Shown here: piece by piece, positions 32,033 to 62,834 of the stretch
Position numbering within the stretch: position 1 is the stretch's first letter
How the letters are laid out: every line of letters starts with the position of its first letter
Assembly (NCBI RefSeq): GCF_001700965.1
Contig: NZ_CP016756.1
Coordinates: 1,736,001 to 1,800,000 of the forward strand
Reading direction: 5' to 3'
Source: Stenotrophomonas nitritireducens
GTDB lineage: Bacteria; Pseudomonadota; Gammaproteobacteria; Xanthomonadales; Xanthomonadaceae
DNA length: 64,000 nucleotides
Position numbers and translations under genes: made by a program
Notes under the pieces: model-generated
What the model was told of the DNA's origin: nothing
The model's database searches: none
What the model saw: the letters and a program-made list of their open reading frames with translations, nothing else

Positions 32033-32304
32033 GTAGTGCCGAGCCATGCTCGGCAGGGGCTTCACCAGTAGAGCCTCAGCCGAGCATGGCTCGGCTCTAC
32101 AGCGCCACTTCCGGCAATGCTTCTAGGAGCTACTGTAGTGCCTAGCCATGCTCGGCAAGAGGCTTCACCGGTAGCGCCTCAGCCGAGCATGGCTCGGCGC
32201 TACAGCCCCGCTTCCGGCAATGCTTGTAGGAGCTGCGGTAGTGCCGAGCCATGCTCGGCAGGGCTTCACCGGTAGAGCTTCAGCCGAGCATCGCTCTGCT
32301 CTAC
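32033..32304. repeat. Three tandem SMAG-pair units (about 102-base period)
   Basis: Three copies of a paired GTAG palindrome lie at 32033-32100, 32135-32203 and 32238-32304. Each pair is GTAGTGCC(G/T)AGCCATGCTCGG, then a CTTCACC(A/G)GTAG centre, then the inverted partner ending CTAC. The spacers between units are also conserved (CTTCCGGCAATGCTT...TAGGAGCT), so the whole 102-103-base unit was tandemly copied. This fits the SMAG REP family known from Stenotrophomonas. Confidence 0.88.
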
Positions 32305-44941: not shown

Positions 44942-45095
44942 GTTCTTATCCATTCTCGGCCGAGGCACGGCGTGCCCCATCCAAGGCTTGGATGCAGAGA
45001 GCGTGGAAAAGGTTTAAACAGCGGGATCAACTGGCCGGGGAATTCCGCAGCCAACCCAAGGGCTTTCGTTGCGCAACCATCCGATGGTTCACGAA

Positions 45096-45165: not shown

Positions 45166-46602
45166 TTACCAGGTGCGGCGCAGCGGGTGGGCTTCGGTAT
45201 TGAAGACCACGCCATTGAAGTCCAGGGTCTTGGCCGGGGCGAACAGCAGGTAGTAGTACTTGAAGGTCTCGGCGAACAGGAAGCTCTCCATCGAGTCGTC
45301 CTTCTCCTTGCTGCGCACGTCCTTCAGCGCCGAGAAACCGTGATCGGTGCGGGTGTAACGCACGAAGTCCTCGAAGAACTCCTTGCCCATGCCGCGGTAG
45401 CGGGCGTCACCGGTGTAATGGTGCAGGTAGTACGCCGACTCCACGATCTCCGGGCGCAGCGCGTAACTGGGCGAGCGCACTTCCATCTTGGCGTAGTCCA
45501 GCGACTCCGGCTCGATGTCGTGCAGGCGCCACATCTTCAGGTTGGATTCCTGCAGGCGCTTGGCGCGGTCGACATCGCCACCCAGGGCCAACAGGCCCGG
45601 CATGAACGCGTCCAGTGCGCCATAGGTGGTGGAGGTGCGGGTGCCGGTATCCATGTCGGCGTGGCCGTACCACAGCTCACCTTCACGCACTTCGTCGGCC
45701 AGGTACTGGTTGATCGGGCCGATGCTCTCGTCCCACATCTTCTTGCAGTCCTCGTCGCCGAACAGCTTCCAGCACTTGAGCAGGTACTCGTAGTACGAGT
45801 CGATGCCGCCGGCAATCGAGGCGTCCTTGTTGGTCCACTCGCCGGTTTCGACGTTGATGTTCAAACCGACCAGACCGATCTTGGAGCGACGCTTGTGGGT
45901 TTCCACCAACGCACGCTTGGCCTTGTCGTAGTACGCCTGCTTGCCGGTGAGCTTGGCCAGGGTGCCGAATTCCAACAGCAGGGTGCCGGTCTCGGCCGGG
46001 TTGCTGATCTTGCCGCTGGTCTTGCCGGTATGCAGGTTGACGTGGGTGTAGGGCAGGCCGGTGGGGCTGTCGAATACCGGCGACAGGCGCGTGCCCAGAT
46101 CATCGGCGAGCTTGAGCAGGCGCTCGTCGTTGGTCATCTGGTAGGCCGACAGCAGGCCACCGAGCAGACGGATGGTGACCTCGAAGTTCTGCACGTCCAT
46201 GTCCTGGTCGAAGGACAGCTGGGTGACGATCAGCTCGCGGGCCTCGTTGGCCTCCTTGTCCAGGCCGAGCAGCAGCAGCGTGTCCAGCGCATCCACCGGC
46301 GACATCAGCAGCGGCTTGGGATACCAGTCGCGCGGCTGCGCGCTGATCGGCTTCAGGTCGTCATGGCCCTTGGCGTACTGCATGTAACCCTGCCAGGCAT
46401 GGCGGGTGGCCTCGCGGACCTGTTCGGCCATGCGTGCGGCTTCGGCTTCATCCACCGCAGGCAGGGCGGCATCGGGGGTCGTTGCGGCGGCAGCAGCCGG
46501 AGCAGCCGGGGTCTTGGCGGGAGCGGCGGCCTGCTGGTTGCAGGCGGAGAGCGCCAGCATCAGCGCGGCGACCAGGGGGGCGGTACGCAGGGAACGGGTC
46601 AT
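45166..46602 (-). CDS. GH47 alpha-mannosidase, lipoprotein
   Basis: 478-residue family 47 glycoside hydrolase, a class of inverting, Ca2+-dependent alpha-1,2-mannosidases best known from eukaryotic N-glycan processing. MTRSLRTAPLVAALMLALSAC is a lipoprotein signal with lipobox LSAC, followed by an Ala/Pro linker. Family blocks are ATRHAWQGYMQYAKGHDDLK, SPVDALDTLLLLGL, FEVTIRLLGGLLSAYQ, ASIAGGIDSYYEYLLKCW, RPEIVESAYYLHHYTGD and the C-terminal VFNTEAHPL, whose Thr binds Ca2+ in the family. It should trim high-mannose glycans at the outer membrane or in the periplasm. It is the last gene of the operon and overlaps the GH2 stop (TGATG). Confidence 0.93.
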   Translation of the reverse strand: MTRSLRTAPLVAALMLALSACNQQAAAPAKTPAAPAAAAATTPDAALPAVDEAEAARMAEQVREATRHAWQGYMQYAKGHDDLKPISAQPRDWYPKPLLMSPVDALDTLLLLGLDKEANEARELIVTQLSFDQDMDVQNFEVTIRLLGGLLSAYQMTNDERLLKLADDLGTRLSPVFDSPTGLPYTHVNLHTGKTSGKISNPAETGTLLLEFGTLAKLTGKQAYYDKAKRALVETHKRRSKIGLVGLNINVETGEWTNKDASIAGGIDSYYEYLLKCWKLFGDEDCKKMWDESIGPINQYLADEVREGELWYGHADMDTGTRTSTTYGALDAFMPGLLALGGDVDRAKRLQESNLKMWRLHDIEPESLDYAKMEVRSPSYALRPEIVESAYYLHHYTGDARYRGMGKEFFEDFVRYTRTDHGFSALKDVRSKEKDDSMESFLFAETFKYYYLLFAPAKTLDFNGVVFNTEAHPLRRTW

Positions 46603-49316
46603 CAGTGAATCCTCTCGACGTAAGCGTTGTCTTGCGATGCAACGGGACGGGACTGCAGGGTGTCGCCCAGCGTCTGCAACTGCAGGGCTGTGCGCAGGGT
46701 GGAAAGCGGTGCGGTGCTGCGCACGATCAGCATGCGGGTCTGGCCGGGCAGCAGGTCGAAGGCGTTGTCTTCGAGGCTGGCGTTGGCGCCATCGAAACCT
46801 ATCCAGATGCCGCGTACCAATGCATCGGCGCGCAGCTGCAAGACGTAGTGATCGCCTTCGGTACGCAACGCGGCGTGCAGCTGCCCGGCCTGCAAGGCCT
46901 GCTGCTTGGCGGCGACGAAATAGACCAGGCGCTGCGCCACTACCTCACTGCCACGGGTCAATTCGAAAGCCGCCACGCTGCGGTTAGGATCTGCTCCCTG
47001 CAGCAGTTCGGCGTCAGTGAAGCGCGCCGCTTCCGTCGCCACTCCTCCGGCCAGACGAATGGCCTTGCGTTCCTGTCGCAGCACACGGCCATCAAAATCC
47101 AGCACGCGCATCTGCCACTGTGCATCCAACGGTTGGCGGTCATCGTTGAGCAGACTCACACGGGTCGTACCGTCATCGCGCAACGCCGCCACCGCTACAT
47201 CGGCGAAGAATCGCCTGGCATGGAAGTTCAGCGCTTTCCAGTTGCCGTAATAATCCACGCTGGACCACGACGCACCCGGCCACACATCGTTGAGCTGCCA
47301 ATACAGCGAGCCCATCGTGTAAGGCCGCGAGGCGCGATGATGCAGTGCCGCCAGCGCGATGCCTTCAGCCTGCATCATCTGGCTCAGATAGACGAAGTCG
47401 GCGAAGTTGCGCGGCGTGCCGTATTCCATCTCGATGTAGTGCAACAGCCGCTCGTTGCCCTTGCCGGCGAGGAATTTCTGGTGCGCCTGGATCACCGGGC
47501 CATCAATCTGCTGTTCTTCCGCCGTGGCAAAGGCATTGATCGTCGACAGCTGCGGCCAGGCCTGCAGTCCGAACTCGGACATGAAGCGCGGGGTTTCCTT
47601 CAGGTAGGCGGTCGGCGGCAACGCCGGGTTGCCCCAGACTTCCCAGTAGTGCTTGTCACCGCGGCGCGAATCGTTGGCCTTGGCATCCAGGTCATTGCTG
47701 GGCGAGCTGGACCAGTACGGCACGCCCAGTCCCTCCTCGGCCACCACGCTGCGCAGGTCCTTGCCGAACAGGTCCACGTACCCCTGCCACACCTTCTGCG
47801 CGAACACCGGATCGGCGTCCTTCAGCGTCTTGCCGTGGCCCCAATCCTTCCACGCGGTTTCTTCCTCGTTGTTGCCACACCACAGCACGATGCTGGGGTG
47901 ATGGCGAAGACGTCGGATATTGTCGCGCGCTTCGGCGACCACATTGGCGCGGAACGCCGGGTCATAGCCTGGCTGCATGCCGCCGCCGAACATGAAGTCC
48001 TGCCATACCAGCAGGCCCAGCTCGTCGGCGATATCGTAGAAGGCGTCGTCTTCGTAGTAACCGCCGCCCCAGTTGCGCAGCATGTTCATGTTGGCATCGC
48101 GCGCAGCCTGCAGATCGCGTCGCAGCCGTTCGCGCGTGACCCGTGCGGGGAACGCATCGAAGGGAATCACGTTGGCCCCCTTGGCAAACACCGGCACGCC
48201 ATTGATGACGAAGGCGAAACCCTGCCCGCCGTCCTTGTCCTCGTCGCGCTGCAGCTGCACGGTACGCAGGCCGATGCGGATGCTCGACGCCAATGCATCC
48301 TGCTTGCCGTCACCCAGCCGCGCCTGCACGGTATAGCGGTCCTGGGCGCCATAGCCAACCGGCCACCAGCGCCGTGGCTTGTCGATCTGCAGCGGCAGCG
48401 ACACGTTGTTCTCGCCCGGCGTCAGCGCGATGTCCTGCGTGATCCGGGCGACCCTGGCACCGTCCGGGCCAAGCACATCAACAAGCACTTTCTGCGTGGC
48501 AGCGGCATCCGCCTGCTCCACCTGCAGCAGCACGCTCAGCCGCGCGGTGTCCGCATCCAGTGCATCGGTACGCACCGACAGATCGGTGATGCGCTGCTGG
48601 TCCCAGCTATCCAGATGCACCTGCCGCCACACGCCGGCAGTGACATAACGCGGGCCCCAGTCCCAGCCGAAATGGTAGGCCGGCTTGCGCACGAAATTGC
48701 CGACCATTGCGTCCTTCGGCTCATCGCCGTAGGGCGAAGGGTAATTGCCGGCGATCTTGTGCGGCATCGCCTGTACCTGCGGAAGCAGCGTGCGGATCGG
48801 CGAGCGGAACACGATCTGCAGCGCATTGCCCTGCGCACGCAGACGACCATCAACGCGCGCGCGCCAGGTGCGGTGTGCGTTGTCGGCGTTGAGCAAGGGC
48901 TGCCCGTTGAGCCGCACCTCGGCAAACGTATCCAGACCATCGAAGCGCAGCTCGGCATGCGGGCGCGCCAGCGTTGCCGCATCCACATCGAAGCGCGCGC
49001 GGTATTCCCAGTCGCCCAGGCCTATCCATTGCAGGCCGGCTTCGGCCGCACCGACATAGGGATCGCCGATCACTCCGGCCGCCATCAGATCGGTGTGCAC
49101 GCTGCCCGGCACGGCCGCCGGCTTCCACGCATCCAGGCCGGGATGTGACTGCAGCTGTGCATCGCCGGGCAGCAACCGGAAACTCCACTGCGCCTGCAAT
49201 TCGGCAGCCGACGCGTTGCCGGCCAGCGCCAGCAGAACACACGTCAGCCACGCACGCTGCGCGCTGCCAGAGTGCCTTTGTATCCATCCAAATTTTCTCT
49301 GCAAACGCTGCCGCAT
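46602..49316 (-). CDS. GH2 beta-mannosidase, exported
   Basis: 904-residue family 2 beta-mannosidase. A signal peptide (about 1-38, ending NASAAE) precedes the jelly-roll, immunoglobulin-like and TIM-barrel domains. The acid/base Glu is in LWCGNNEEETAW, near residue 480. The nucleophile Glu is in RFMSEFGLQAWP, near 580. WGGGYYEDDAFYDIADELG is a further family block. It releases beta-linked mannose, such as the core Man-beta-1,4-GlcNAc of N-glycans or mannan oligosaccharides. GGAGGGG lies before ATG 49316. It sits 33 bases after the mannose isomerase gene and overlaps GH47 by one base. Confidence 0.94.
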   Translation of the reverse strand: MRQRLQRKFGWIQRHSGSAQRAWLTCVLLALAGNASAAELQAQWSFRLLPGDAQLQSHPGLDAWKPAAVPGSVHTDLMAAGVIGDPYVGAAEAGLQWIGLGDWEYRARFDVDAATLARPHAELRFDGLDTFAEVRLNGQPLLNADNAHRTWRARVDGRLRAQGNALQIVFRSPIRTLLPQVQAMPHKIAGNYPSPYGDEPKDAMVGNFVRKPAYHFGWDWGPRYVTAGVWRQVHLDSWDQQRITDLSVRTDALDADTARLSVLLQVEQADAAATQKVLVDVLGPDGARVARITQDIALTPGENNVSLPLQIDKPRRWWPVGYGAQDRYTVQARLGDGKQDALASSIRIGLRTVQLQRDEDKDGGQGFAFVINGVPVFAKGANVIPFDAFPARVTRERLRRDLQAARDANMNMLRNWGGGYYEDDAFYDIADELGLLVWQDFMFGGGMQPGYDPAFRANVVAEARDNIRRLRHHPSIVLWCGNNEEETAWKDWGHGKTLKDADPVFAQKVWQGYVDLFGKDLRSVVAEEGLGVPYWSSSPSNDLDAKANDSRRGDKHYWEVWGNPALPPTAYLKETPRFMSEFGLQAWPQLSTINAFATAEEQQIDGPVIQAHQKFLAGKGNERLLHYIEMEYGTPRNFADFVYLSQMMQAEGIALAALHHRASRPYTMGSLYWQLNDVWPGASWSSVDYYGNWKALNFHARRFFADVAVAALRDDGTTRVSLLNDDRQPLDAQWQMRVLDFDGRVLRQERKAIRLAGGVATEAARFTDAELLQGADPNRSVAAFELTRGSEVVAQRLVYFVAAKQQALQAGQLHAALRTEGDHYVLQLRADALVRGIWIGFDGANASLEDNAFDLLPGQTRMLIVRSTAPLSTLRTALQLQTLGDTLQSRPVASQDNAYVERIH

Positions 49317-49349
49317 AGCCCCTCCGCTAGTGCTTGACGTTGCCGGGCC

Positions 49350-50591
49350 TCAGCCCGGCTGCTGCTCGCGAACCACGTTCAGTACTTCGTGGCAGGCGCC
49401 CATGGTGTGATAGTCGGTCTTGCCGGCCGGGCTCTTTTCATCGTCGTACTTGCGGTTGTCGGCATCGAGGATGCGGAACCAGGCGCCGTAACGATGATCT
49501 ACGAAGTACTGCCACGCGTATGCCCACAGGCGGTCATACCAGTCCCAATAACCGGCATCGCCGGTGCGTTTGGCCAACAGCGCGGCAGCGGCCAGCGACT
49601 CGGCCTGCACCCAGAAGTATTTGTCGTCGTCGCAGACAAAACTGTCGCCACCGATGGCGGCGCCGTCCATGTTGGGCTGCCGGCGCGACTCCGGCGCGAA
49701 CCCGTAATACAGGCCACCGCGTGCCTCATCCCAGGAGCGCATGACTGCGCTATCGAACAGATGCTGCGCTGTCGGCACCAGCCAGTCGGCATCGACATGG
49801 CGATCAAGGATCATCAGCAGCTTGGCCCATTCGGTCTGATGACCGGGCTGGAAGCCCCACGGCCGGAACAGGTGCTTGGGGTTGTCCAGGTTGTAATCCC
49901 AGTCGATGTTCCAGTCGATGTCGTAGTGTTCCCAGACCAGGCCGCCAGCCTTGGAAGCCTGGCGGCGGGTCATGTTGTCGGCCAACTGCAGCGCACGCAG
50001 CAGATAGCGCTGCTCGCCACTGGCCTCGAACGCGGCCAGCATGGCCTCGCACATGTGCATGTTGGCGTTCTGGCCACGGTAGCCGGTGAAGTTCCAGCTG
50101 GCATCGGCTTCGTCGCGGTACAGGCCATGCTGCGGCTCCCAGAAATGGCGCTCCAGCAGCTGCCAGGTTTCATCCATCCATTCGCGGCCCTGCTCGATGC
50201 CCGCCTTCAACGCGCAGCTGTACGCCAACAGCACGAAGGCCACGCCGTAGCAGTGGTTCATGTCGTCCTCGACCTTGCCATCGCGCAGGGTCCAGGCATA
50301 ACCGCCGGTCGCCGGGTTGCGGTGCACATCGCGCAGATAGCGCACGCCGTGCTTCACCGCGTCCAGATACTCGGCATTGCCGTACTCACGGTAGGCCATG
50401 GCGTAGTTGAAGACGAAACGGGTGCTGCTGACCAGGTGCCGGTGGCTGCGGTCATAGATGCTGCCGTCGTCGCGGTAGTAATGGAAGAAGCCACCTTGCG
50501 GATCGATGCAATGCGGGTGATAGAAGGCCATCGTGTCGGCGACATGCGCGCGCAGGAAGGCCGGTGAACGGAAATCGGGCGTGGTGCTCAT
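49350..50591 (-). CDS. AGE-family isomerase, probably D-mannose isomerase
   Basis: 413-residue N-acylglucosamine 2-epimerase-fold enzyme. The (alpha/alpha)6-barrel blocks include FFHYYRDDGSIYDRSHRHLV, DDMNHCYGVAFVLLAYS, WNFTGYRGQNANMHMCEAML, WGFQPGHQTEWAKLL and YHTMGACHEVLNV. The conserved histidines fit the catalytic set of YihS/mannose isomerases that interconvert mannose and fructose. No signal peptide is present, so it is cytoplasmic. It overlaps the sugar kinase gene by 4 bases (ATGA). The context of mannosidases and a fructose-type kinase favours mannose to fructose over GlcNAc epimerisation or cellobiose epimerisation. Confidence 0.88.
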   Translation of the reverse strand: MSTTPDFRSPAFLRAHVADTMAFYHPHCIDPQGGFFHYYRDDGSIYDRSHRHLVSSTRFVFNYAMAYREYGNAEYLDAVKHGVRYLRDVHRNPATGGYAWTLRDGKVEDDMNHCYGVAFVLLAYSCALKAGIEQGREWMDETWQLLERHFWEPQHGLYRDEADASWNFTGYRGQNANMHMCEAMLAAFEASGEQRYLLRALQLADNMTRRQASKAGGLVWEHYDIDWNIDWDYNLDNPKHLFRPWGFQPGHQTEWAKLLMILDRHVDADWLVPTAQHLFDSAVMRSWDEARGGLYYGFAPESRRQPNMDGAAIGGDSFVCDDDKYFWVQAESLAAAALLAKRTGDAGYWDWYDRLWAYAWQYFVDHRYGAWFRILDADNRKYDDEKSPAGKTDYHTMGACHEVLNVVREQQPG

Positions 50592-51583
50592 ACGATGGCC
50601 TCGTGTTGCTGCAGCAGCTGCTGCACTTCATTCAATGCAGGCATGGCGGCGAATGCGCCCTTGCGGGTGACTGCCAATGCGCCCACCGCCGCGGCAAAGC
50701 GCAGCGTGCCGTGGATGGCATTGGGGGTTTTGCAGAACGCGGCAAAGCCGGCGCCCGCACCGCCGCGTTCAACCAAGCCAACCAGCACGCCGCCGACAAA
50801 GGCATCGCCCGCCGCAGTGGTATCCACCGCCTGCACGCTGAAGCTGGGCACTTCACCCTGGCCATGGCGGGTATACCAGCGCAGCGTGCCGGCGCCGTCG
50901 GTGACGATCACCCACTGCGCCTGCGCGGCCAGCAGCCGGCGCAGTACCTGCGCGTCGCCGTCCGCGCCCAGGGGGGCGGCCAGATAGTCCAGTTCCTCGC
51001 GCGAGAGCTTGATCAGGTCGGCACGTTCCAGTGCCTGCCAAAGACGTGGGGTGGGGTCGACATCGGCCGGCCACAGCGCCGGGCGCAGGTTCAAATCCAG
51101 GCTGACCACCGCACCGGCGGCGCGGGCGCGCTCCATGCCGGCGAAGGTTGCCGCAGCGATCTCCGCCTCGGTCAGGCTGTTGGAGCACACATGGAAGCAG
51201 GCGGTGCCGTCGAAACAGGCCGGCAGGTAATGCTCGGCGCGGAACAGCAGGTCCGCCGCCGGTGGCCGGTAGAAGCTGAAACTGCGCTCGCCATGTGCAT
51301 CCAGGGCAACAAATGCCAACGCGGTCTTGGCCTGGTCGGTGCGCACCACACAGTCGGTTTCAACTCCGGCCTGCTGCAGGCTTTCCAGCAGGAAATCAGC
51401 AAACATGTCGCGGCCCAGCATGCCGGCGAAATGGCTGCTGGCACCCAGCCGCGCAGCCGCGACGGCGACATTGGCCGGGGCCCCGCCAGCGTACTGCAGG
51501 AAGGCGCGCGGGGTGTCGGCCGAGGCCGGCGGTTGCGCTAATAGATCGATCAAAATTTCGCCGAAACAAACAATCTTGCCCAT
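50588..51583 (-). CDS. PfkB-family sugar kinase, probably fructokinase
   Basis: 331-residue ribokinase-fold kinase. The N-terminal FGEILIDLLAQ and YAGGAPANVAVAAARLG bind the sugar. The C-terminal signature DTTAAGDAFVGGVLVGL, near 250-265, holds the catalytic Asp and the anion hole. By context it phosphorylates fructose from the isomerase to fructose-6-phosphate with ATP; family members also act on ribose, 2-keto-3-deoxygluconate or tagatose-6-phosphate. Its start is 6 bases after the transporter stop and its end overlaps the isomerase gene. A sequence within its first codons matches the putative operator at 12 of 14 positions. Confidence 0.9.
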   Translation of the reverse strand: MGKIVCFGEILIDLLAQPPASADTPRAFLQYAGGAPANVAVAAARLGASSHFAGMLGRDMFADFLLESLQQAGVETDCVVRTDQAKTALAFVALDAHGERSFSFYRPPAADLLFRAEHYLPACFDGTACFHVCSNSLTEAEIAAATFAGMERARAAGAVVSLDLNLRPALWPADVDPTPRLWQALERADLIKLSREELDYLAAPLGADGDAQVLRRLLAAQAQWVIVTDGAGTLRWYTRHGQGEVPSFSVQAVDTTAAGDAFVGGVLVGLVERGGAGAGFAAFCKTPNAIHGTLRFAAAVGALAVTRKGAFAAMPALNEVQQLLQQHEAIV

Positions 51584-51589
51584 CTGGCC

Positions 51590-52897
51590 TCAGTCCTTTT
51601 GGCTGACACCGGTGCTGGCGCGTGAACCCACCAGCCCGTAGAAAATGATGTAGCCGTAGCACAGCAACGGCAGTACGAAGGAGTGGTGCAGGCCGATGCG
51701 ATCGGCCAGCATGCCCTGCAGGAACGGCACCACCGCGCCGCCGACAATGGCCATGATCAGCAGGCTGGAGGCCTTGTTGGTCAACGGCCCCAGGCGTTCG
51801 ATGCCCAGCGCGAAGATGGTCGGGAACATGATCGAGTTGAACAGGCCAATCGCCACCACCGAATACAACGCCAGCGTGCCTTCACTGGCCATGGTCAATG
51901 CCAGCAGGCCAACGTTGATCAAGGCGAACAGCGCCAGCAGCTTGCGCGGCGAGAAGCGCACCAGCAGCGCCGAGCCGGCAAAGCGGCCGATCATCGCCAT
52001 GGTCCAGTACAACGACACGTAATGCGTTGCCTGCTGCTCACTGAAACCGCCGATATTGGGCAGCGACAGGTAATTGACCAGGAAGCTGCCGATCGACACC
52101 TCGGCACCCACATAGAAGAAGATGCCCAGCACGCCGAACAACAGGTGCTTGTGACGCAGCGCATCGCCGTAGCTGTGCCGCGCAGTGTCGGCCTGCTCGC
52201 TGTTCTCGCTCAGCGTCGGCAGGCGGAACAGGAATACGAACAGGGCCAGCAGGAACAGCGCCACCGCCAGGCCGAGGTACGGGCCCTGCACCGACTGCGC
52301 TTCCTGCGCGCGGTAGGCCAGCTGGTCGGCCAGCGGCAGCGCGGTCAGCTCATCGGCGCTCTTCACCGTATTGCCCAGGATCAGCATGCCGCCGAAGATC
52401 GGCGCAATCGCCGTGCCCAGCGAATTCAGCGCCTGCGCCAGGGTGAGGCGACTGGAACTGGTGCGTTCCGGGCCGAGCAGCGCCACATAGGGATTGGCGG
52501 CGACCTGCAGCACGGTGATGCCGGTTGCCAACACGAACAACGCCGCAAGGAACGCGCCATAGATGCGCAGCTCCGCCGCCGGCCAGAAGCCCAGCGCGCC
52601 GATGCCGGCAATGACCAGCCCGGCGACAATGCCCTGCTTGTAACCCAGCCGCGCCACCAGCCGCCCGGCGGGCAGTGACATCAGGAAGTAGGCGCCGAAG
52701 AAGGTGAACTGCACCAGCATCGCGCGGGTGTAGTTCAACTCGAACACCGATTTCAGGTGCGGGATCAGGATGTCGTTGAGGCAGGTCAGGAAGCCCCACA
52801 TGAAGAAGATGGTGGTGGCCACCGCCAGCGCCACGCGCGTATTGACCACGGGCGCCGCAGCATTTGGTGCAGACGATGGCGATGTTGGTATGTGCAT
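51590..52897 (-). CDS. FHS-family sugar:H+ symporter (FucP/GluP-like)
   Basis: 435-residue, 12-helix major-facilitator transporter of the fucose:H+ symporter family. The family start TIFFMWGFLTCLNDILIPHLK, then FFGAYFLMSLPAGRLVARLGYKQG, VLQVAANPYVALLGP and NSLGTAIAPIFGG, identifies the FHS group, whose members carry fucose, glucose/galactose or N-acetylglucosamine. By context it brings free mannose from the periplasm into the cytoplasm. ATG 52897 starts close to the first helix; the open frame to 53068 runs into the LacI gene. It is 43 bases after the regulator and 6 bases before the kinase. Confidence 0.92.
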   Translation of the reverse strand: MHIPTSPSSAPNAAAPVVNTRVALAVATTIFFMWGFLTCLNDILIPHLKSVFELNYTRAMLVQFTFFGAYFLMSLPAGRLVARLGYKQGIVAGLVIAGIGALGFWPAAELRIYGAFLAALFVLATGITVLQVAANPYVALLGPERTSSSRLTLAQALNSLGTAIAPIFGGMLILGNTVKSADELTALPLADQLAYRAQEAQSVQGPYLGLAVALFLLALFVFLFRLPTLSENSEQADTARHSYGDALRHKHLLFGVLGIFFYVGAEVSIGSFLVNYLSLPNIGGFSEQQATHYVSLYWTMAMIGRFAGSALLVRFSPRKLLALFALINVGLLALTMASEGTLALYSVVAIGLFNSIMFPTIFALGIERLGPLTNKASSLLIMAIVGGAVVPFLQGMLADRIGLHHSFVLPLLCYGYIIFYGLVGSRASTGVSQKD

Positions 52898-52940
52898 GTG
52901 GGCTGCCTGGATGCGGTAGTCAAAAAAGGGGGTTACAAAC

Positions 52941-53999
52941 TCAACTCGGCCTTGCTGCACTGCTTTCGCGGATCCGCAGCTGCACCGGCGCGACGGTGCG
53001 CATCGGTGCCGCGTCGGGGTTGTCCAGGCGCTGCAGCAGCAACGCCGCCGCCTGGCGGCCACGTTCACGCGGGTCGGCGGTAAGCGTGGTCAACGGCGGC
53101 ACCGCGACGGCGGCCTCGGAGATATCGTCGAAACCGGTGACAGCAAAATCGCCGCCCGGTCGGATGCCGCGCGAGGTCAGGCCCAACATCAGGCCCAACG
53201 CAACCGTATCGTTGTAGCAGACCGCCGCGCTGGGCCGCTGTGCGCTTTCAAACAATTCGCCGGTACGCGCAGCCGCTTCCAGTCGGTTCGGGGCCGATTC
53301 GATCATCCAGCCGGCATGCACCGGCAGGCCGGCTTCGGTCAGCGCCTGCTGGTAACCCAGGCGGCGCTGCGCGCACGAACTGGAGACGGCGTGACCGCCG
53401 AAGAAGGCGATGTCACGGTGTCCGCGCTCGATCAGGTGCCGGGTCGCCATGTAGGCGCCGTGCTGGTTGTCCAGGGTCAGGAAGTCCCACTCGGCACCGG
53501 GCAGCTCGCGGTTGAACAGCAGCACGTTCGCGTGCGCGCCCAGCACATGGCGCAGTTCCTCGGCATCGCTGCCTTCGGCCGGCGACAGGATGAAGCCGGT
53601 GGGGGTGTGCTCCATCAAGGTACTCAGCACCGCCTGCTGCCGCTGCGGTGATTCGCCGGTGCTGCCGAGCAGGGTGACATAACCCTTGCCGCCCAGCGCC
53701 TCGTCCACGCCCGAGGCAAACTCGGCGAAGAATGGGTTGGACAGATCGTTGATCACCAGCGCGATCGATGACGAAGTGCGCCGGCGCAGGTTGGCGGCAG
53801 TGCGGTTGTAGACATAGCGCTGCTTGCGCAGCTCGGCCTCGACCTTGGCGCGGGTGTCGACATTGACCAGCGGGCTGCCACGCAGCACCAGCGACACGGT
53901 CGCCCGCGACACCCCCACCGCCTGCGCGATGTCGGTGACGGTGACCGCGCGTTGGCCGGGCTTGCGTGCGTTCTTGGCGCCAGGTGAGGTTTCTTTCAT
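52941..53999 (-). CDS. LacI-family transcriptional regulator
   Basis: 352-residue regulator. The helix-turn-helix is at about 18-42 (VTVTDIAQAVGVSRATVSLVL), followed by the hinge helix region YNRTAANLRRRTS. The periplasmic-binding-protein-like effector domain follows, with LVINDLSNPFFAEFASGVDEA and FDDISEAAVAVPPLTTL. LacI proteins normally repress and are released by a pathway sugar. It lies between GH92 and the transporter in the same operon, so it probably regulates that operon and the divergent receptor. Three palindromes with a central CG (TTAGATCGATCCAA type) in the divergent region are its likely operators. ATG 53999 follows GCGGAAACG. Confidence 0.93.
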   Translation of the reverse strand: MKETSPGAKNARKPGQRAVTVTDIAQAVGVSRATVSLVLRGSPLVNVDTRAKVEAELRKQRYVYNRTAANLRRRTSSSIALVINDLSNPFFAEFASGVDEALGGKGYVTLLGSTGESPQRQQAVLSTLMEHTPTGFILSPAEGSDAEELRHVLGAHANVLLFNRELPGAEWDFLTLDNQHGAYMATRHLIERGHRDIAFFGGHAVSSSCAQRRLGYQQALTEAGLPVHAGWMIESAPNRLEAAARTGELFESAQRPSAAVCYNDTVALGLMLGLTSRGIRPGGDFAVTGFDDISEAAVAVPPLTTLTADPRERGRQAAALLLQRLDNPDAAPMRTVAPVQLRIRESSAARPS

Positions 54000-54097
54000 C
54001 GTTTCCGCTACGGTTCCGGGATGCGCCAAGCCTATAGGATCGCAGCCCCCGCCAGCGGTGCCCGCTCCCCTGCGTGTGGCCTTGGCGCTGCCCTTGC

Positions 54098-56554
54098 TCA
54101 CGGCTGGGCGCTGCCCGGGGTGGCGCAGTACGACACCGGCAAGTCGGCCGTTGCGGTGCCCCAGCCCTGCTCCGGTGCCTGCGTGCCCAGCGTGAAGCGG
54201 ACATCGCCGCCCTGCTGCAGGCGCTGCCAGTCCAGCCACACCGCGGCCTGCGGCTTGCCATCAACCTGCACTGCCTGGATGTACTGCAGGCTGCGGCCAT
54301 CGGCACCTTGCGCATGCAGGCGCAAGGTGCGGCCATTGCCCAGGGTGATCTCGGCCTTGCTGTAACGCGGTGCATGCAGCAGGAACTGGCCGCTGCCCGG
54401 CACCGCCGGATACAGGCCCAGCGCGCTGAACAGGTACCAGGCCGACATCGTGCCCAGGTCGTCATTGCCGGTGACGCCGTTCGGCGCATTGGTGAACAGC
54501 TGCTGCGCGGCGCGGACCACGGTAGCGGTCTTCCACGGCTGGCCTATCAGCGTATACATCCACGGCGCATGCAGGTCCGGCTCGTTGTTGGGGTTGTATC
54601 GGTACTGGTTGTAATAGCTGTACGGGCCGACCACCCACTCCTTGCGTGCGGCGGTCAGCGGCGCCTGCAGCAGCGCGTCGTAGGCGAAGAAAGCATCCAG
54701 CCGCTTGCCCGCCTGTTCGCGACCATGCATGGCCTGCAGCATGCCCGGCACGTCCTGCTGTACCAGCCACTGGTACTGCCAGCCGGTGCCTTCATGGAAG
54801 CCGTGCTGCGAACGCGGGCTGTAGTGGCCATCGGCCGGCGTATACCACTTGCCGTTCTCGTCGCGCGGACGCGGGAAGCCGGTGAAGCCAGTCTCGGCAT
54901 CACGCACATCCGCATCCCATACCTTGTGCCAGTTGCCACCGCGACTACGCAGGGTAGCTGCATCGTCAGCATGGCCGAGACCATCGGCCATCTGCGCCAG
55001 CGCACAATCGGCCAGCGCGTATTCCAGCGTCGCCGAACCACCGTGGTGCGGATCCACATCCATGCCCTTGGACGGGAAGGCACGGTCGTAACCGACATAA
55101 CCGTTGGCGAGATAACTTGCGTTGCCGGAACGCCCTGCATGGCGCGAGTTGATCGGCGGCATTTCAAAGGCATTGCGGCGCAGTGCGCCCCAGGCTTCCG
55201 CCTCGCGGCCCTGCAGCGCACCGAAGCGCCACAGATCAACCATGAACGGCGTTACCGGGTCGCCGGTCATCACATTGGTTTCGAAGTTTGCATAGCCCCA
55301 ACGCGGCAACCAGCCGCCCTGTTCGTTGATGGCGAGCAGGCTGCGGCCGATATCGCGGGCAACGTCCGGGCGGGTCAGCGCAAGCCACTGGTTCTGCGTG
55401 CGGTAGGTATCCCACAGCGAGAAGTACTCGTAGTAGGTCCAGCCATCGGCGCGATGAATCCCGTCGTCATAACCACGGTAGCGGCCATCGGCATCGCTGC
55501 CGGTCATCGGCTGCAACAACGCGTGGTACAGCGCGGTGTACAGCACGCTGCGATCGTCGGCATTCGCGCCTTCCAGCTTGACGCTGGCCAGCTGCTCGCG
55601 CCATTGCGCCTGCGACAGCGCGCGCATGTGGTCGAAGCTCAACAGCTTGCCGCCCTGCATGCCATCGCTGCGCAGGTTGTTGCGCGCGCCTTCGGCATCC
55701 ACATGCGAGATCGCACTGGTGGCGGTGACGCTGCGGCCATCGGCCAGGTCAAAACTCAACCACGCACCATTGGGCTTGGCCTCGCCTTCCATGCTGTGGC
55801 GCGCACCGGGCAGGCCGCCTTCCTCGCCCCAGGTGCCATGCGCCTTGAACGGACGATCGAACTCGATGCGGAACCACGTCGTGTACTGGTGGCCACCGCA
55901 GAAACTCTTGGTAACCAACTTGCCTTCCACCGCGCGGTCACCGACCACATCGACGACGCTGCCGATCACCGAATGGCGTTCGTTGGCCTGCGCAACATTG
56001 ACCAGCACCTGGCCTTCGCTGACACCGGCGCTGAAGGTATAGCGCTCGGCGGCGGCGCGGGTGAGCGCGGTGGTTTCCACGTCGATACCGCGGTAGTCGG
56101 TCAGCCGGACCTTGTAGTAGCCGGCCTGCCCGACTTCACCGTCATGGCTGTAGGCCGATGCGTAATTCTTGTGGTCGAAACGCTTGGGGTCCTTGGTATC
56201 GAAATCACCGCCCGGGCCAATGCTGCCGGTCACCGGCAAGACCGACACCTGCCCGCCCTGCTCCCAGCAACCGGCGCCGGAAATGAAGGAATGGCCAAAA
56301 CCACGGATCTTCTCGTCGTCATAGCGCCAACCCGAGTAGTGGCTGCCGATCGGGCTGACCTGGATCAGGCCGAACGGTGCCGATGCGCCCGGGAAGGTGT
56401 TGCCGTCGTCCTTGCTGCCGATGAAGGTGTTGACCTCGCGCTCCAGCGCGGCCGACGGTGCGGCCTGCAGCAAGGGCGCGAAACTCAATGCCAGCAGGCA
56501 GGCGGCCATTGCCGCAGGGCGGCTGAAATGGGCGGTGGACGGCGATCGGCTCAT
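54098..56554 (-). CDS. GH92 alpha-mannosidase, exported
   Basis: 818-residue family 92 Ca2+-dependent inverting exo-alpha-mannosidase. A signal peptide (about 1-31, ending LLQAAP) precedes the N-terminal beta-sandwich (TFIGSKDDGNTFPGASAPFG, SGWRYDDEKIRGFGHSFISG) and the (alpha/alpha)6 barrel. Family signatures are YEYFSLWDTYRTQNQW, HEGTGWQYQW and GNDDLGTMSAWYLFSALGLYP, which carries catalytic-base acids. GH92 enzymes remove alpha-1,2-, 1,3- or 1,4/1,6-linked mannose; linkage cannot be read here. It is the first gene of the seven-gene operon and is followed 98 bases later by the regulator. Confidence 0.95.
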   Translation of the reverse strand: MSRSPSTAHFSRPAAMAACLLALSFAPLLQAAPSAALEREVNTFIGSKDDGNTFPGASAPFGLIQVSPIGSHYSGWRYDDEKIRGFGHSFISGAGCWEQGGQVSVLPVTGSIGPGGDFDTKDPKRFDHKNYASAYSHDGEVGQAGYYKVRLTDYRGIDVETTALTRAAAERYTFSAGVSEGQVLVNVAQANERHSVIGSVVDVVGDRAVEGKLVTKSFCGGHQYTTWFRIEFDRPFKAHGTWGEEGGLPGARHSMEGEAKPNGAWLSFDLADGRSVTATSAISHVDAEGARNNLRSDGMQGGKLLSFDHMRALSQAQWREQLASVKLEGANADDRSVLYTALYHALLQPMTGSDADGRYRGYDDGIHRADGWTYYEYFSLWDTYRTQNQWLALTRPDVARDIGRSLLAINEQGGWLPRWGYANFETNVMTGDPVTPFMVDLWRFGALQGREAEAWGALRRNAFEMPPINSRHAGRSGNASYLANGYVGYDRAFPSKGMDVDPHHGGSATLEYALADCALAQMADGLGHADDAATLRSRGGNWHKVWDADVRDAETGFTGFPRPRDENGKWYTPADGHYSPRSQHGFHEGTGWQYQWLVQQDVPGMLQAMHGREQAGKRLDAFFAYDALLQAPLTAARKEWVVGPYSYYNQYRYNPNNEPDLHAPWMYTLIGQPWKTATVVRAAQQLFTNAPNGVTGNDDLGTMSAWYLFSALGLYPAVPGSGQFLLHAPRYSKAEITLGNGRTLRLHAQGADGRSLQYIQAVQVDGKPQAAVWLDWQRLQQGGDVRFTLGTQAPEQGWGTATADLPVSYCATPGSAQP

Positions 56555-56859
56555 GTCTTGGATCCTTGGGTCGGTCGTTGCGGCAACGATGTTGGTACGG
56601 CAAAGGTTGGCCCGGACAAGCCGGGCCGCTGATGCCCAGCCCGTCCCGCGAGGGACGGGGGAGAGATGCCAGGCATCAGCAAAACTGCTCAGGCCCCGCC
56701 ATCCGCCGCTGCCGCCGCGATGGCAGCGGCAAGCAAGGCAGAAGCACACATCGCGCGGCCTTCTGAAGCTTCTTTGGCAGCATTTCCAGTGGTTTACAGC
56801 GGCCGCGCAGCCACATCTGCGCAACCATCCCTGCCCCCTGGGAACGCCCCTCTGAAAAT

Positions 56860-56873
56860 TTAGATCGATCCAA
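56860..56873. promoter_or_regulatory. Putative LacI-family operator O1
   Basis: TTAGATCGATCCAA is an imperfect palindrome (TTnGATC-GATCnAA) with a central CG, as in LacI-type operators. It lies 306 bases upstream of the GH92 start. Confidence 0.65.
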
Positions 56874-56974
56874 GTAAAGCACGGTCATTTCCGCGAACGC
56901 ATTCTGCGGCGCAACATCAACTGCCCCGAGCAGACCGACAAGGCCCGTCCCATGCTCGGCAGCAGCATCACCCT

Positions 56975-57041
56975 GTAGCGCCGAGCCATGCTCGGCAGAG
57001 GCTTTCCCGGTTAGGCCCCGCCGAGCGTGGCTCGGCTCTAC
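56975..57041. repeat. SMAG pair
   Basis: GTAGCGCCGAGCCATGCTCGG, then an inverted partner ending GGCTCGGCTCTAC. It is the same family as 32033-32304. Confidence 0.8.
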
Positions 57042-57178
57042 CCAGGCAAAAGCCTACCCCTCCCCAACCCGTCCGGCCCGAAGGCACAGCCTTCGGTCGT
57101 TCATCAGGCCGCGCGCCAGTGGCGCGCAAGCAGGCCTTCTTCACCCCCTTCGCTACGCGAAAGGGAGGGAGCAAAGCG

Positions 57179-57246
57179 GTAGTGCCGAGCCATGCTCGGC
57201 AGAGGCTCTCTCGGTAAGGCCCCTGCCGAGCATGGCTCGGCACTAC
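57179..57246. repeat. SMAG pair
   Basis: GTAGTGCCGAGCCATGCTCGG, then an inverted partner ending GGCTCGGCACTAC, 137 bases after the preceding pair. The sequence between the two pairs is unrelated to other copies. Confidence 0.8.
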
Positions 57247-57274
57247 CCGTTGCACCTCTGCCCCGCCAACCCCA

Positions 57275-57299
57275 CCGCCCCGCCCCGCCCCGCCCCGCC
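57275..57299. repeat. Five tandem CCGCC units
   Basis: CCGCC is repeated five times without interruption, about 230 bases before the receptor start. Simple repeats of this kind can change length by slippage. Confidence 0.8.
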
Positions 57300-57358
57300 A
57301 TATTGCGTAGCAACATGCGTCCGCCCCGTGGCTGTGCTAAAAAATGCGCGCCAATCGT

Positions 57359-57372
57359 TTAGATCGATCCAA
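57359..57372. promoter_or_regulatory. Putative LacI-family operator O2
   Basis: TTAGATCGATCCAA, identical to O1. It lies 157 bases upstream of the TonB receptor start. Confidence 0.7.
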
Positions 57373-57467
57373 ATCGACACCCCCACGATCGCCGGCAGCG
57401 GAAGCCCAGGCATACGCCAAGCAGGTCTTGAGCGGACGCACCACAAGGCCCCGGTTTCACAGGTTTT

Positions 57468-57481
57468 TTAGATCGATACAA
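57468..57481. promoter_or_regulatory. Putative LacI-family operator O3
   Basis: TTAGATCGATACAA, one base different from O1 and O2. It lies 48 bases upstream of the receptor ATG, a typical place for a repressor site over or after a promoter. Confidence 0.7.
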
Positions 57482-57528
57482 GTCAACGTTCCAGCAAACA
57501 ATTCAATCCAGGAGAGGGAGAGAGTGGA

Positions 57529-60500
57529 ATGAAACAGATCAAACCCAAGCAGGGCCGCGACACATTGTCCGCCGCCATTGCCGTGGCCTTGTTGGCCGTG
57601 GCTGCCGTCCCCGGCGCCGCGTTCGCGCAGCAGGCAACTACCACCAGCAGCGCCGATGCCACCACGCTCGACAGCGTCAACGTCACCGGCTACCGCTACG
57701 CCATCGAAAAAAGCCTTGAGCAGAAGCGCGACGCCAATGCCGTGGTCGAGGTGATCACCGCCGAAGACGTGGGCAAGTTCCCCGACAAGAACGTGGCCGA
57801 CGCGCTGCAGCGCGTGCCCGGCGTGATCATCACCCGCGACGGTGGCGAAGGTAAGAACGTCAGCGTGCGCGGCCTGTCCTCGGAGCTGACCCTTACCGAA
57901 TTGAACGGCAATTACGTGGCCACCGCCGAATCCAACGGCGACCCCACCCGCTCGTTCAACTACACGCTGCTGCCGTCGAACATGCTGGGCAGCGCCGAGC
58001 TGTTCAAATCGCCGGAAGCGCGCATCGACGAAGGCGGCATCGGCGGCACGGTGATCCTGCACACGCGCCGCCCGCTGGACATGGAAGCCAACACCGGCTT
58101 CGTCTCCGTTGAAGGCACCTGGGCCGACACCACCAAGAAGACCGACGGCCAGCTTTCCGCCTCGTACTCGTGGCACGACAAGGACGAACGCTTCGGCGTG
58201 TTCGTCGGTTACACCGACCAGAAGCGCACCACCCGCACCATGGGCGCCAGCACTGAAGGCTGGTCCTGGTATGGCCGCGACGAAGGCGGCACCGCGGTTG
58301 ACGTCCACGGCAACCCCTCCGACTTCAATTCCAACTGGTGGGGCGGTACCGGCTTCTACGACCAGAACGGCAAGTACTACACCGGCTTCATGATGCCGAC
58401 CTCGGTGAACCTCGATGTCACGGATGAGGAACGCGAGCGCAAGGGCGGCCAGATAACCCTGCAGTTCAAGCCGCTGGACAACCTCACCCTGACCGCGAAT
58501 TACTTCCGCTTCGACCTGTCGCAGAACTCCCAGACCCACACCATCAAGGTGCCGGAATGGAACATCGCCCGCTATTGGGGCGACGGCAACTGGGCCGGCG
58601 GGCGCCTGCTCGACGGGCTGACCATGGACCCGAGTGGCACCATCGTCACCGGCGCCGATTACAGCAAGCACCCCGGGAAAACGTACTACTGCAAGGAGCC
58701 GACGAAGGAAGAGATCGAGGCGGGCCGGCTGCCCGGCGGCTGGGGCTCGGACGACTGCACCGTGCCGACCCCACAGATCACCGGCAGCTACAACCTCGAA
58801 GAGGCACTGTCGCAGACCGTCGATTTCTCCGCCGAATGGATCGGCGAGTCGGTCGACATCGCCTTCAAGGGCGGGCGCACCTGGGCCGAGGGCGGCCCGT
58901 CGCTGCAGTTCTCGGTGCCGCTCAAGCCGCGCAGCCAGAATACGGACGGCAGCTGGAACCTGGGCAACCTGACCAGCTCCTGGAACCTGACCGGTACGCC
59001 GTCGATGGCGTTCTCGCCGGAACTGATGCAGAACCTGAAGAACGGCATCCTGCAGGTTGACCTCGGCTCCACCGGCTCGTCGTGGACCCGTAATACCAAT
59101 CAGCAGAAGTTCGCCCAGATCGACACCACCTGGCACAACGACTCCGGCTTTCTGGAATCGCTGCAGTTCGGCGTCAAGTACCGTGACGGCGGAATCCACC
59201 GCAGCACCGGCAACAGCTACTGGGCCTGCCCGGGCACCGACCCCAGCGACTACGCCAACCGCTATTGGAACGGCCGCTGCAACGACATCGCCCAGCAGTT
59301 CTCGCCGGACTTCATCTACGGCATGGGCAACCTGGCCGGCGGCATCAATGCAAGCGCGTTCCCGGCCATCAACTACCCGGCCTATATCGCCCATCTGAAC
59401 AAGACCTACGGGCCGATGCAGACCCGCAACGAGGACAACTTCGTCTACAACGTGGACGAAAAAATCTACGCCACCTACCTGCAGGCCAACTTCCGTACCG
59501 AGCGCCTGCGCGGCAACGTCGGCGTGCGCGTGGTCAGCACCCGCCAACACGCTGATTCCACCGACAAGGTCACCTCGTACAACGACTACTTCTACGACGA
59601 CGCCAACGGCAACCCGCTGGCCTGCCAGGCCGGCGCGACAGTACCCGGTGGCGCACCCGCCGATACCTATTGCGGCACCGAAGGCTACTGGCGGCTCTCG
59701 GATGACGAGCAGCGCGTCGAGTCGTTCGCAGTCAGTGGCCTGGACCGCAGCTACACCGACGTGCTGCCCAGCTTCAACCTGGCCTATGACCTGACCGATA
59801 ACCTGCTGCTGCGTGCGGCGGCGTCCAAGGTGATCGCACGCCCGAGCTACAACAACATCGCCGCACCGGGCAGCCTGGAATACTTCAGCCCCGAATACGT
59901 CAACGACCGCCGCCTCACCGGTGGCGCCAGCGAACAGGGCTGGTACGGCTCGGGCAGCAACAAGAATCTGAAAGCCTACAAGGCCACCCAGTACGACATC
60001 GGCGTGGAGTGGTACTTCCAACCCGGCTCGGTGTTGGGCTTGGGCCTGTTCCGCAAGGACGTCAGCAACTTCTTGGTACCGGTGGTGCAGGACGTCACCC
60101 AGAACGTTGGCGGTCAGAGCGTGGTGGTGCAGAACTACTCCACCACGGCCGGTGGTCGTGATGCGGTGTCGCAGGGCCTGGAGTTCTACGCCCAGCACAC
60201 GCTGGATTTCGGCCTGGGCTTCCAGGCGAACTACACCTGGAACGACACCAACGAAGCGGCGATCACCCTGGAAGACGGCACCGAGATCGGCAAGTCACCG
60301 CTGGTTGGCAGCGCCGAGAACCAGGCCAACTTCACCGTGTTCTATGAAGTTGAAAAGCTGCTGCTGCGTGCCTCGTGGAACCGTCGTGGCGAAGTGGTGC
60401 AGGGCCTGGTCAGCGGCCTGAACCTCTACCAGGAGCCCTACCAGCAGATCGATCTGAACGCGGCCTACAACATCACCCCGGCGTTGAGCCTGAGTGCCTC

Positions 60501-60621
60501 GGTGTTGAACCTGACCAAGGAAGAGACGCGCACCCATCTGGGCAACGACACCAAGGCCCGTTTCTACTCCAACGGTTACGCGGGTCGTGTGGTCTATTTC
60601 GGCGTGAACTGGAAGTTCTAA
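57529..60621 (+). CDS. TonB-dependent receptor, Xanthomonas/Caulobacter type
   Basis: 1030-residue outer-membrane receptor. A signal peptide (about 1-28, ending AAFAQ) is followed by a TonB-box-like stretch near TTLDSVNVTGYR. The plug domain has VVEVITAEDVGKFPDKNVAD, ALQRVPGVIITRDGGEGKNV, SVRGLSSELTLTELNG and GGIGGTVILHTRRPLD. The barrel ends YFGVNWKF with terminal Phe. It fits the TonB-Xanth-Caul group, whose members often import plant or glycan oligosaccharides. The divergent mannosidase operon and shared operators suggest that it captures mannosides. AGGAGAGGGAGAG precedes ATG 57529, and a strong terminator follows. Confidence 0.94.
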   Translation: MKQIKPKQGRDTLSAAIAVALLAVAAVPGAAFAQQATTTSSADATTLDSVNVTGYRYAIEKSLEQKRDANAVVEVITAEDVGKFPDKNVADALQRVPGVIITRDGGEGKNVSVRGLSSELTLTELNGNYVATAESNGDPTRSFNYTLLPSNMLGSAELFKSPEARIDEGGIGGTVILHTRRPLDMEANTGFVSVEGTWADTTKKTDGQLSASYSWHDKDERFGVFVGYTDQKRTTRTMGASTEGWSWYGRDEGGTAVDVHGNPSDFNSNWWGGTGFYDQNGKYYTGFMMPTSVNLDVTDEERERKGGQITLQFKPLDNLTLTANYFRFDLSQNSQTHTIKVPEWNIARYWGDGNWAGGRLLDGLTMDPSGTIVTGADYSKHPGKTYYCKEPTKEEIEAGRLPGGWGSDDCTVPTPQITGSYNLEEALSQTVDFSAEWIGESVDIAFKGGRTWAEGGPSLQFSVPLKPRSQNTDGSWNLGNLTSSWNLTGTPSMAFSPELMQNLKNGILQVDLGSTGSSWTRNTNQQKFAQIDTTWHNDSGFLESLQFGVKYRDGGIHRSTGNSYWACPGTDPSDYANRYWNGRCNDIAQQFSPDFIYGMGNLAGGINASAFPAINYPAYIAHLNKTYGPMQTRNEDNFVYNVDEKIYATYLQANFRTERLRGNVGVRVVSTRQHADSTDKVTSYNDYFYDDANGNPLACQAGATVPGGAPADTYCGTEGYWRLSDDEQRVESFAVSGLDRSYTDVLPSFNLAYDLTDNLLLRAAASKVIARPSYNNIAAPGSLEYFSPEYVNDRRLTGGASEQGWYGSGSNKNLKAYKATQYDIGVEWYFQPGSVLGLGLFRKDVSNFLVPVVQDVTQNVGGQSVVVQNYSTTAGGRDAVSQGLEFYAQHTLDFGLGFQANYTWNDTNEAAITLEDGTEIGKSPLVGSAENQANFTVFYEVEKLLLRASWNRRGEVVQGLVSGLNLYQEPYQQIDLNAAYNITPALSLSASVLNLTKEETRTHLGNDTKARFYSNGYAGRVVYFGVNWKF

Positions 60622-62707: not shown

Positions 62708-62834
62708 GGGACGACTCCATGGCGACACGCTGGATGCCAGTATCGGTCATCGCTGTTTCAAAGCACATCAATGCGATGATGCCGGCTGACAACCCGCCCC
62801 CATGGCCGGTTCACCGGCCCCACCGGAGTACGTC

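Follow-up and report, generated by a model that had tools for sequence, protein, structure and literature searches.

A candidate LacI-controlled regulon for the use of high-mannose N-glycans in Stenotrophomonas nitritireducens

A 64,000-nucleotide stretch of the Stenotrophomonas nitritireducens genome, which is a single contig of 4.54 Mb (NZ_CP016756.1, positions 1,736,001 to 1,800,000, here called the window), carries at window positions 45,166 to 60,621 a locus of eight genes that is probably the principal part of a regulon under LacI control for high-mannose N-glycans, the probable form of which is glycopeptides or glycoasparagines. Sequence and comparison reveal the gene families and their order, an operator motif with two locations in the genome and, in relatives, a neighbourhood of genes for a glycosylasparaginase (AGA) and for the glycoside hydrolase families GH20 and GH29. 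An earlier note on the window had read the locus as a self-contained unit dedicated to mannose. What it said of capture, trimming, import and conversion, of a divergent receptor gene and of an N-acetylglucosamine (GlcNAc) part lying elsewhere is supported; self-containment and dedication to mannose are not.

Organization of the locus and predicted functions

All eight genes are open frames of the window sequence. Seven of them lie on the minus strand and encode, in this order, a GH92 alpha-mannosidase (54098..56554, 818 aa), a LacI-family regulator here called ManR (52941..53999, 352 aa), an FHS-family sugar transporter of the inner membrane (51590..52897, 435 aa), a PfkB-family kinase that is a probable fructokinase (50588..51583), an AGE-superfamily isomerase that is probably a D-mannose isomerase (49350..50591), a GH2 exo-beta-mannosidase (46602..49316) and a GH47 alpha-1,2-mannosidase (45166..46602). 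The successive gaps are 98, 43, 6, -4, 33 and -1 bases once the starts of the LacI, transporter and GH92 genes are set; the GH92 start is a chosen one, the open frame extending to 56824. On the plus strand a gene for a TonB-dependent receptor (57529..60621, 1030 aa) diverges from this operon. The open frames and the Pfam and NCBIfam matches agree with the earlier note in the families, places and gaps of the seven genes and in the divergent receptor gene, which is supported as part of the same unit. A profile search likewise bore out that the locus lacks a hexosaminidase or GH18 gene (0 of 8 proteins match these families). The order GH92-LacI-MFS-PfkB-isomerase-GH2-GH47 is repeated in named Stenotrophomonas and, with some of the genes lost, among other Xanthomonadaceae. 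Because of this recurrence the arrangement is not a matter of chance.

The receptor, with Plug and barrel domains (TBDR barrel 140.5 bits), scores 784.7 bits against TIGR01782 (cut-off 310). It adjoins exo-glycosidases for N-glycan linkages, a feature that the locus shares with N-glycan utilisation loci of the Xanthomonas nix kind, and it is predicted to import mannose-capped glycans or glycopeptides across the outer membrane. The GH92 protein matches PF07971 with 475.8 bits and TIGR01180 with 474.8 bits (cut-off 249.55). The GH2 protein, with a GH2 N-terminal domain of 178.8 bits, has the beta-mannosidases 6byc (972.6 bits) and 2vjx (586.6 bits) as its best solved relatives. The GH47 protein scores 413 bits against PF01532 (cut-off 22.9) and its residues E73, D200, E317 and T401, which we presume to have catalytic roles, are invariant in 18 of 18 sequences (alignment A1); its best solved relative is 4ayo (286 bits, aligned over its length), which we take to come from Caulobacter. 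Judged by eye, the N-termini of all three enzymes are signal-like, that of GH47 with a lipobox-like LSAC.

The proteins of the inner part of the operon fit the further handling of free mannose. ManR matches PF00356 (39 bits) and Peripla_BP_3 (PF13377, 118.5 bits). The transporter (MFS, 89.3 bits) lies above the cut-off of the subfamily model gluP, TIGR01272 (333 versus 202.55 bits), and the kinase (PF00294, 207.8 bits) has its best solved relative in 3ljs, a 'Fructokinase' by its deposited name (418.7 bits). The isomerase scores 414.4 bits against PF07221 (GlcNAc_2-epim), a label that is the name of its superfamily, and is closest to 3gt5 (736.9 bits) and then to 5x32 (513.3 bits). The latter is named as a D-mannose isomerase of Marinomonas in the part of PMC7762179 consulted, which also describes an AGE-family enzyme of P. 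geniculata measured as a D-mannose isomerase. Families and solved relatives together support the use of mannosides and the route from mannose to fructose-6-phosphate that the earlier note had proposed.

A shared operator motif and a probably split regulon

Three copies of a LacI-type operator, TTTAGATCGATMCAA, stand at 56859, 57358 and 57467 between the GH92 and receptor genes. The copy beside the receptor gene (57467..57481, plus strand) reads TTTAGATCGATACAA, the middle copy (57358..57372, plus strand) and the copy on the GH92 side (56859..56873, plus strand) read TTTAGATCGATCCAA, and each has a site near the like place in Stenotrophomonas relatives. With up to two mismatches the window holds five matches versus 0.03 expected, the two extra ones being the opposite-strand reading of the middle site and a site at 49278, just within GH2. 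A wider pattern with one mismatch, run over the whole genome, gave eight rows at six places, and the three exact places are all in this locus; the reversed control pattern gave one row.

The motif is conserved together with the regulator. Exact TTAGATCGATYCAA occurs in 37 of 41 Stenotrophomonas genomes (98 matches summed), the reversed control in 0 of 41, and the four genomes without it (G231, G302, G320 and G325) are the same four that lack a match to the second GH92 protein discussed below (Fisher p ~1e-5, with kinship between genomes ignored). Among the relatives' loci L120-L136, 15 of 17 have a site with at most one mismatch outside the kinase gene; Stenotrophomonas loci have two or three sites at like places, and other genera have one to three. 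The 23 loci grouped as Burkholderiales (450 kb) and the 29 grouped as Acidobacteriota/Verrucomicrobiota (473 kb) gave no site with at most one mismatch. The DNA-binding helix SRATVSLVL is present in all 13 Xanthomonadales orthologues of ManR displayed, a selected set, and all three Burkholderiales LacI proteins displayed have another recognition helix. A palindrome-like site before the target genes that is conserved with its regulator points to a local regulon of the LacI family.

Two further matches were set aside. An operator-like site with one mismatch at window position 51541 was treated as coding sequence, since relatives carry a similar one within their kinase gene. For a one-mismatch match at 4,172,665 of the genome, none of the six surrounding open frames matches a family other than Abi_C, DUF4942 and HNH (L036:6363-10097, ~4.171-4.175 Mb), which suggests a mobile or defence stretch that bears the site by chance. 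Palindromic GTAG...GCCGAGCCATGCTCGGC repeats, which we take to resemble the GTAG repeats described for Stenotrophomonas, occur in the window at 56975-57246, 32033-32260 and 35814; three of them lie in the divergent promoter region, where they separate the first operator from the second.

The only other GH92 gene of the genome has its domain at 3,497,934-3,499,325, 1.71 Mb from the locus, and a one-mismatch operator site, TTAGACCGATCCAA, stands 10 bases before its presumed ATG. Among 35 close orthologues of this second GH92 the loci of 30, including that of this genome, were examined, and all 30 have an operator site adjoining the presumed start, 339-360 bases upstream of the query protein's first residue. 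One of these sites is exact, nine have one mismatch and 20 have two; 18 of the latter share an identical TTGGATCGATTCAG and are not independent. Elsewhere in the same 147 kb there were no sites. Of the five remaining orthologues, those of G300, G309 and G322 have an exact site at the matching distance, which a scan for exact sites did not find in G301 and G308. Thus, if the sites work as they look, the unit is not self-contained, as two operator-bearing loci lie 1.71 Mb apart. In G309 a further exact operator stands 12 bases upstream of where a GH43 gene is presumed to start (L225:5648-6681), which suggests an extra enzyme of the regulon in that strain. The second GH92 gene of G313 (L183, G313:C1:407862-409871) is listed with one internal stop codon.

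The source of the mannose

The genes that accompany the locus in relatives bear on which source of mannose is likely. Of the 12 Xanthomonadaceae loci L120-L131, seven have AGA (Asparaginase_2, glycosylasparaginase type) and cutC in or beside the locus. AGA lies upstream of both the operator and the receptor gene in L123, L124, L126, L128 and L129, and in L121 and L122 it stands between the LacI and GH92 genes. The Lysobacter-type AGA scores 353 bits to glycosylasparaginase versus 122.6 bits to the best entry named L-asparaginase, and is thus nearer to the former than to L-asparaginases or isoaspartyl peptidases; the AGA of the present genome is 75% identical to it and falls in the same glycosylasparaginase class. 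In 12 Stenotrophomonas flanks the module glk-AGA-cutC is 0.2-0.5 kb from the receptor gene in three and ~7 kb away in two, and in two (L121, L122) the operon itself includes AGA-cutC. Of eight further stretches, taken from seven genomes, three (L228, L230 and L232, one cut by the stretch end) place cutC and AGA next to the receptor gene; several of the others did not extend far enough to show these genes.

GH20 is found in the stretch in the same five loci that have AGA upstream of the operator (5 of 12) and in two of the five loci L132-L136, namely L132 (Rudaea) and L136. GH20 also accompanies the named loci L049-L052 and L084, and it occurs in 3 of 23 Burkholderiales-group loci; GH29 is found in L051 only (P. 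sacheonensis, which also has GH20). Because AGA, GH20 and GH29 act on the GlcNAc, fucose and asparagine end, N-glycan is the likeliest source of the mannose, and an N-glycan or glycoasparagine source is what these neighbours set against a locus dedicated to mannose.

None of the locus genes in the window is a GlcNAc or fucose enzyme, although the loci of some relatives do have such core enzymes. Elsewhere in the genome lies the GlcNAc part that the earlier note had expected there: two GH20 genes belong to a nag-like locus at ~1.41-1.44 Mb, another GH20 gene is at 0.58 Mb, and AGA is at 4.494 Mb. The last belongs to a glk-AGA-cutC module at 4,492,837-4,495,650 (L209:6837-9650), in which the reading frames of AGA and cutC share 4 bases. 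The genome has a further Asparaginase_2 gene at 3.316 Mb, whose likeness to AGA is only 38%. A search of the genome, which did not extend to GH95 and others, gave no GH29 match, and with GH29 lacking, unfucosylated high-mannose chains fit best. No endoglycosidase was identified in an incomplete search that covered GH85 and GH18: GH85 gave no match (its control matched in 1 of 14), and the best solved relatives of the three GH18 genes are all named chitinase. The PNGase F search, in which no control matched, is uninformative on that enzyme, and GH76, GH99, GH125, GH38, GH95 and PNGase A were outside the genome search.

In L125 of G190 a gene for a legumain-type protease (Peptidase_C13, L125:9155-10306) follows the receptor gene; an asparagine-cutting protease would fit the use of glycoasparagines. 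The stretch, which does not reach beyond GH47, holds GH47, LacI, GH92 and receptor genes; matches to the isomerase, the kinase, the transporter and GH2 are absent from it.

GH47 as an optional gene of the operon

GH47 is mainly a eukaryotic family. In the order Xanthomonadales it was found in 18 of 299 genomes and in 4 of 19 listed genomes of the same genus. The window protein is 99% identical to the GH47 of Stenotrophomonas terrae and 91-98% to eight other named Stenotrophomonas records. In six Stenotrophomonas loci (L166, L167, L170, L171, L174 and L176), which presumably belong to the S. maltophilia group, the operon ends after GH2 and no GH47 match follows. Since the adjacency of GH2 and GH47 is common to Stenotrophomonas, Luteimonas and Lysobacter loci, loss in those six genomes is the simpler reading, and GH47 appears as an optional last gene of a conserved bacterial operon. 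Among 80 named loci out of 227 relatives, covered to at most 10 kb on each side so that absences may be misses, the isomerase lies near GH47 in 9/9 Stenotrophomonas, 11/13 other Xanthomonadaceae and 3/6 other or unclear gammaproteobacterial loci, in 20/23 of the Burkholderiales group and in 0/29 of the Acidobacteriota/Verrucomicrobiota group.

Directly downstream of GH47 on the same strand is a gene for a serine hydrolase of the beta-lactamase family (PF00144, window 43853-44980). Beyond the receptor gene, window 61856-62728 encodes a putative RNA-related protein with NYN and OST-HTH/LOTUS domains. A PADLOC scan of one neighbouring frame gave no match.

A model of the pathway and its alternatives

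In the pathway that we propose, the TonB-dependent receptor would carry mannose-capped glycans into the periplasm, where GH47 and the two GH92 enzymes, one encoded 1.7 Mb away, would take off alpha-mannose and GH2 the core beta-mannose. Free mannose would then be imported by the FHS permease, turned into fructose by the AGE-fold isomerase and phosphorylated to fructose-6-phosphate by the PfkB kinase. The LacI protein would bind the TTAGATCGATYCAA-like sites, three between the receptor and GH92 genes and one before the second GH92, and release the DNA on binding an inducer, for which mannose or a mannoside is the probable candidate. What remains of the glycan, its chitobiose and asparagine end, would be left to the GH20 enzymes and the glk-AGA-cutC module, outside this regulon in this strain. 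In this scheme the substrate, the secretion of the enzymes, the order of the cuts, the binding of these sites by the LacI protein, the inducer and the repression are predictions from sequence.

Several observations weigh against this proposal. The specificity of GH92 is assigned tentatively, its best solved relative scoring 301 bits. The isomerase lies below the D-mannose isomerase equivalog cut-off (NF051846, 208.9 versus 600 bits) and the kinase below that for fructokinase (NF006957, 220.9 versus 450 bits). Among the relatives, L134 has no site within one mismatch, and the sequence of L122 stops before the region; AGA was not found near the locus in 5 of the 12 Stenotrophomonas flanks, nor is it near the locus in this genome. 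A sigma-70-like promoter scan of the region found none versus 2.1 expected. There is also no operator near the AGA gene of this genome, the sole match (up to three mismatches, 18 kb) lying 7.7 kb past cutC, and the genome scan gave no one-mismatch site at the three GH20 genes. Since both lack operator sites here, the link to N-glycans rests on the gene neighbourhood of relatives.

The same genes could serve other ends. Stenotrophomonas is met in soil, on plants and in clinics, and for an environmental bacterium fungi would be a plausible source of alpha-mannose; two GH92 and one GH47 enzyme would then act on fungal cell-wall alpha-mannan or O-mannosyl glycans, with GH2 as a side activity. We consider this unlikely, as GH2 often stands in the neighbourhood, AGA, GH20 and GH29 join the locus in relatives, and GH76 and GH99 are missing from the locus genes, to which the search for these two families was confined. 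Plant beta-mannan oligosaccharides would make GH2, a clear relative of solved beta-mannosidases, the main enzyme. That is very unlikely in view of the three alpha-mannosidase genes that share the operon or the operator, of the relatives' neighbours that act on the GlcNAc-Asn end and of the lack of GH26, GH5 or GH130 among the locus genes. The transporter also lies narrowly above the cut-off of the L-fucose permease fucP (TIGR00885, 286.2 versus 280.4 bits), which counts against mannose as its sugar and would suit a mixed scavenging set in which transporter and kinase handle L-fucose or fructose. However, its gluP score is the higher one, the genome gave no GH29 match and the neighbouring isomerase resembles D-mannose isomerases, so that the chance of such a mixed set appears slim indeed.

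CutC and the asparagine end

The high-mannose N-glycan reading brings in CutC (PF03932), a widespread family labelled 'copper homeostasis' whose function is unclear and whose role in copper has been doubted. It accompanies glycosylasparaginase in many Xanthomonadaceae loci, often beside the present one, and adjoins AGA wherever both genes are seen in one stretch; in the Undibacterium loci L062 and L065, cutC and glk lie beside GH92. The glk-AGA-cutC module thus offers CutC a concrete metabolic setting. One could imagine N-glycans being dismantled from the non-reducing end only, as in a lysosome and without an endoglycosidase, by alpha-mannosidases, beta-mannosidase, hexosaminidase and at last glycosylasparaginase, with CutC as a working part that, for example, clears 1-amino-GlcNAc. 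We regard this pathway as doubtful, and the clearing of the AGA product by CutC is a guess from the neighbourhood. The glycosylasparaginase AsnA2 of L. casei acts on GlcNAc-Asn, and its product 1-amino-GlcNAc is described as unstable in the part consulted of PMC6960285; in that of PMC3146418 the genes cutC and asnA2 are named only in expression lists. Against a role of CutC stands L068, in which AGA has no cutC match nearby. Moreover, the AGA N-terminus is twin-arginine-like by eye and CutC has none, a difference that speaks against a hand-over in one compartment.

Comparison with known systems

A search of titles and abstracts in one open-licence library found no paper on this locus. The closest known kind is the nix cluster of Xanthomonas (nixD-L), which serves the degradation of plant N-glycans. 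According to the parts consulted of PMC5700972 and PMC6718126 it comprises a receptor, a beta-mannosidase, an alpha-mannosidase, a hexosaminidase, a fucosidase, a GH18 protein (NixF) and a beta-galactosidase, and the asparaginase XAC3092 and cutC XAC3091 lie near it in X. citri, adjacent by consecutive locus tags. On this evidence both systems have a TonB-dependent receptor, a beta-mannosidase and an alpha-mannosidase; the nix hexosaminidase has its counterpart in relatives of the present locus, and the asparaginase and cutC near nix are matched by AGA and cutC near the present locus in many relatives. The cutC neighbourhood is not new, as the consulted part of PMC6718126 already places cutC in the nix region. 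In contrast, the fucosidase, NixF and the beta-galactosidase are features of nix as described there, whereas GH47, the internal LacI gene, the FHS transporter, the isomerase and the kinase are features of the present locus, in a genome without a GH29 or GH85 match and with GH18 genes that are chitinase-like and elsewhere.

In the Bacteroides loci for high-mannose N-glycans several GH92 alpha-mannosidases act in sequence, and GH18, GH85 and PNGase are the glycan-releasing families described (PMC10154615, as far as consulted). Multiple GH92 enzymes for high-mannose chains are a common trait; a GH18 endoglycosidase is in the same operon there, whereas none was identified here. The likeness to 4ayo, the presumed Caulobacter GH47, is that of a bacterial GH47 aligned over its full length, at 286 bits and by protein comparison alone. 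Finally, the part of PMC4052901 consulted describes LacI regulons of the ManR type for mannose and mannosides in five orthologous groups. The present system resembles these, as judged at the level of the family, in having a LacI-family regulator within a mannoside locus, but differs in that its sites are split over two distant places, and it would add to them an exact operator and a two-place regulon for the use of N-glycan mannose in Stenotrophomonas.

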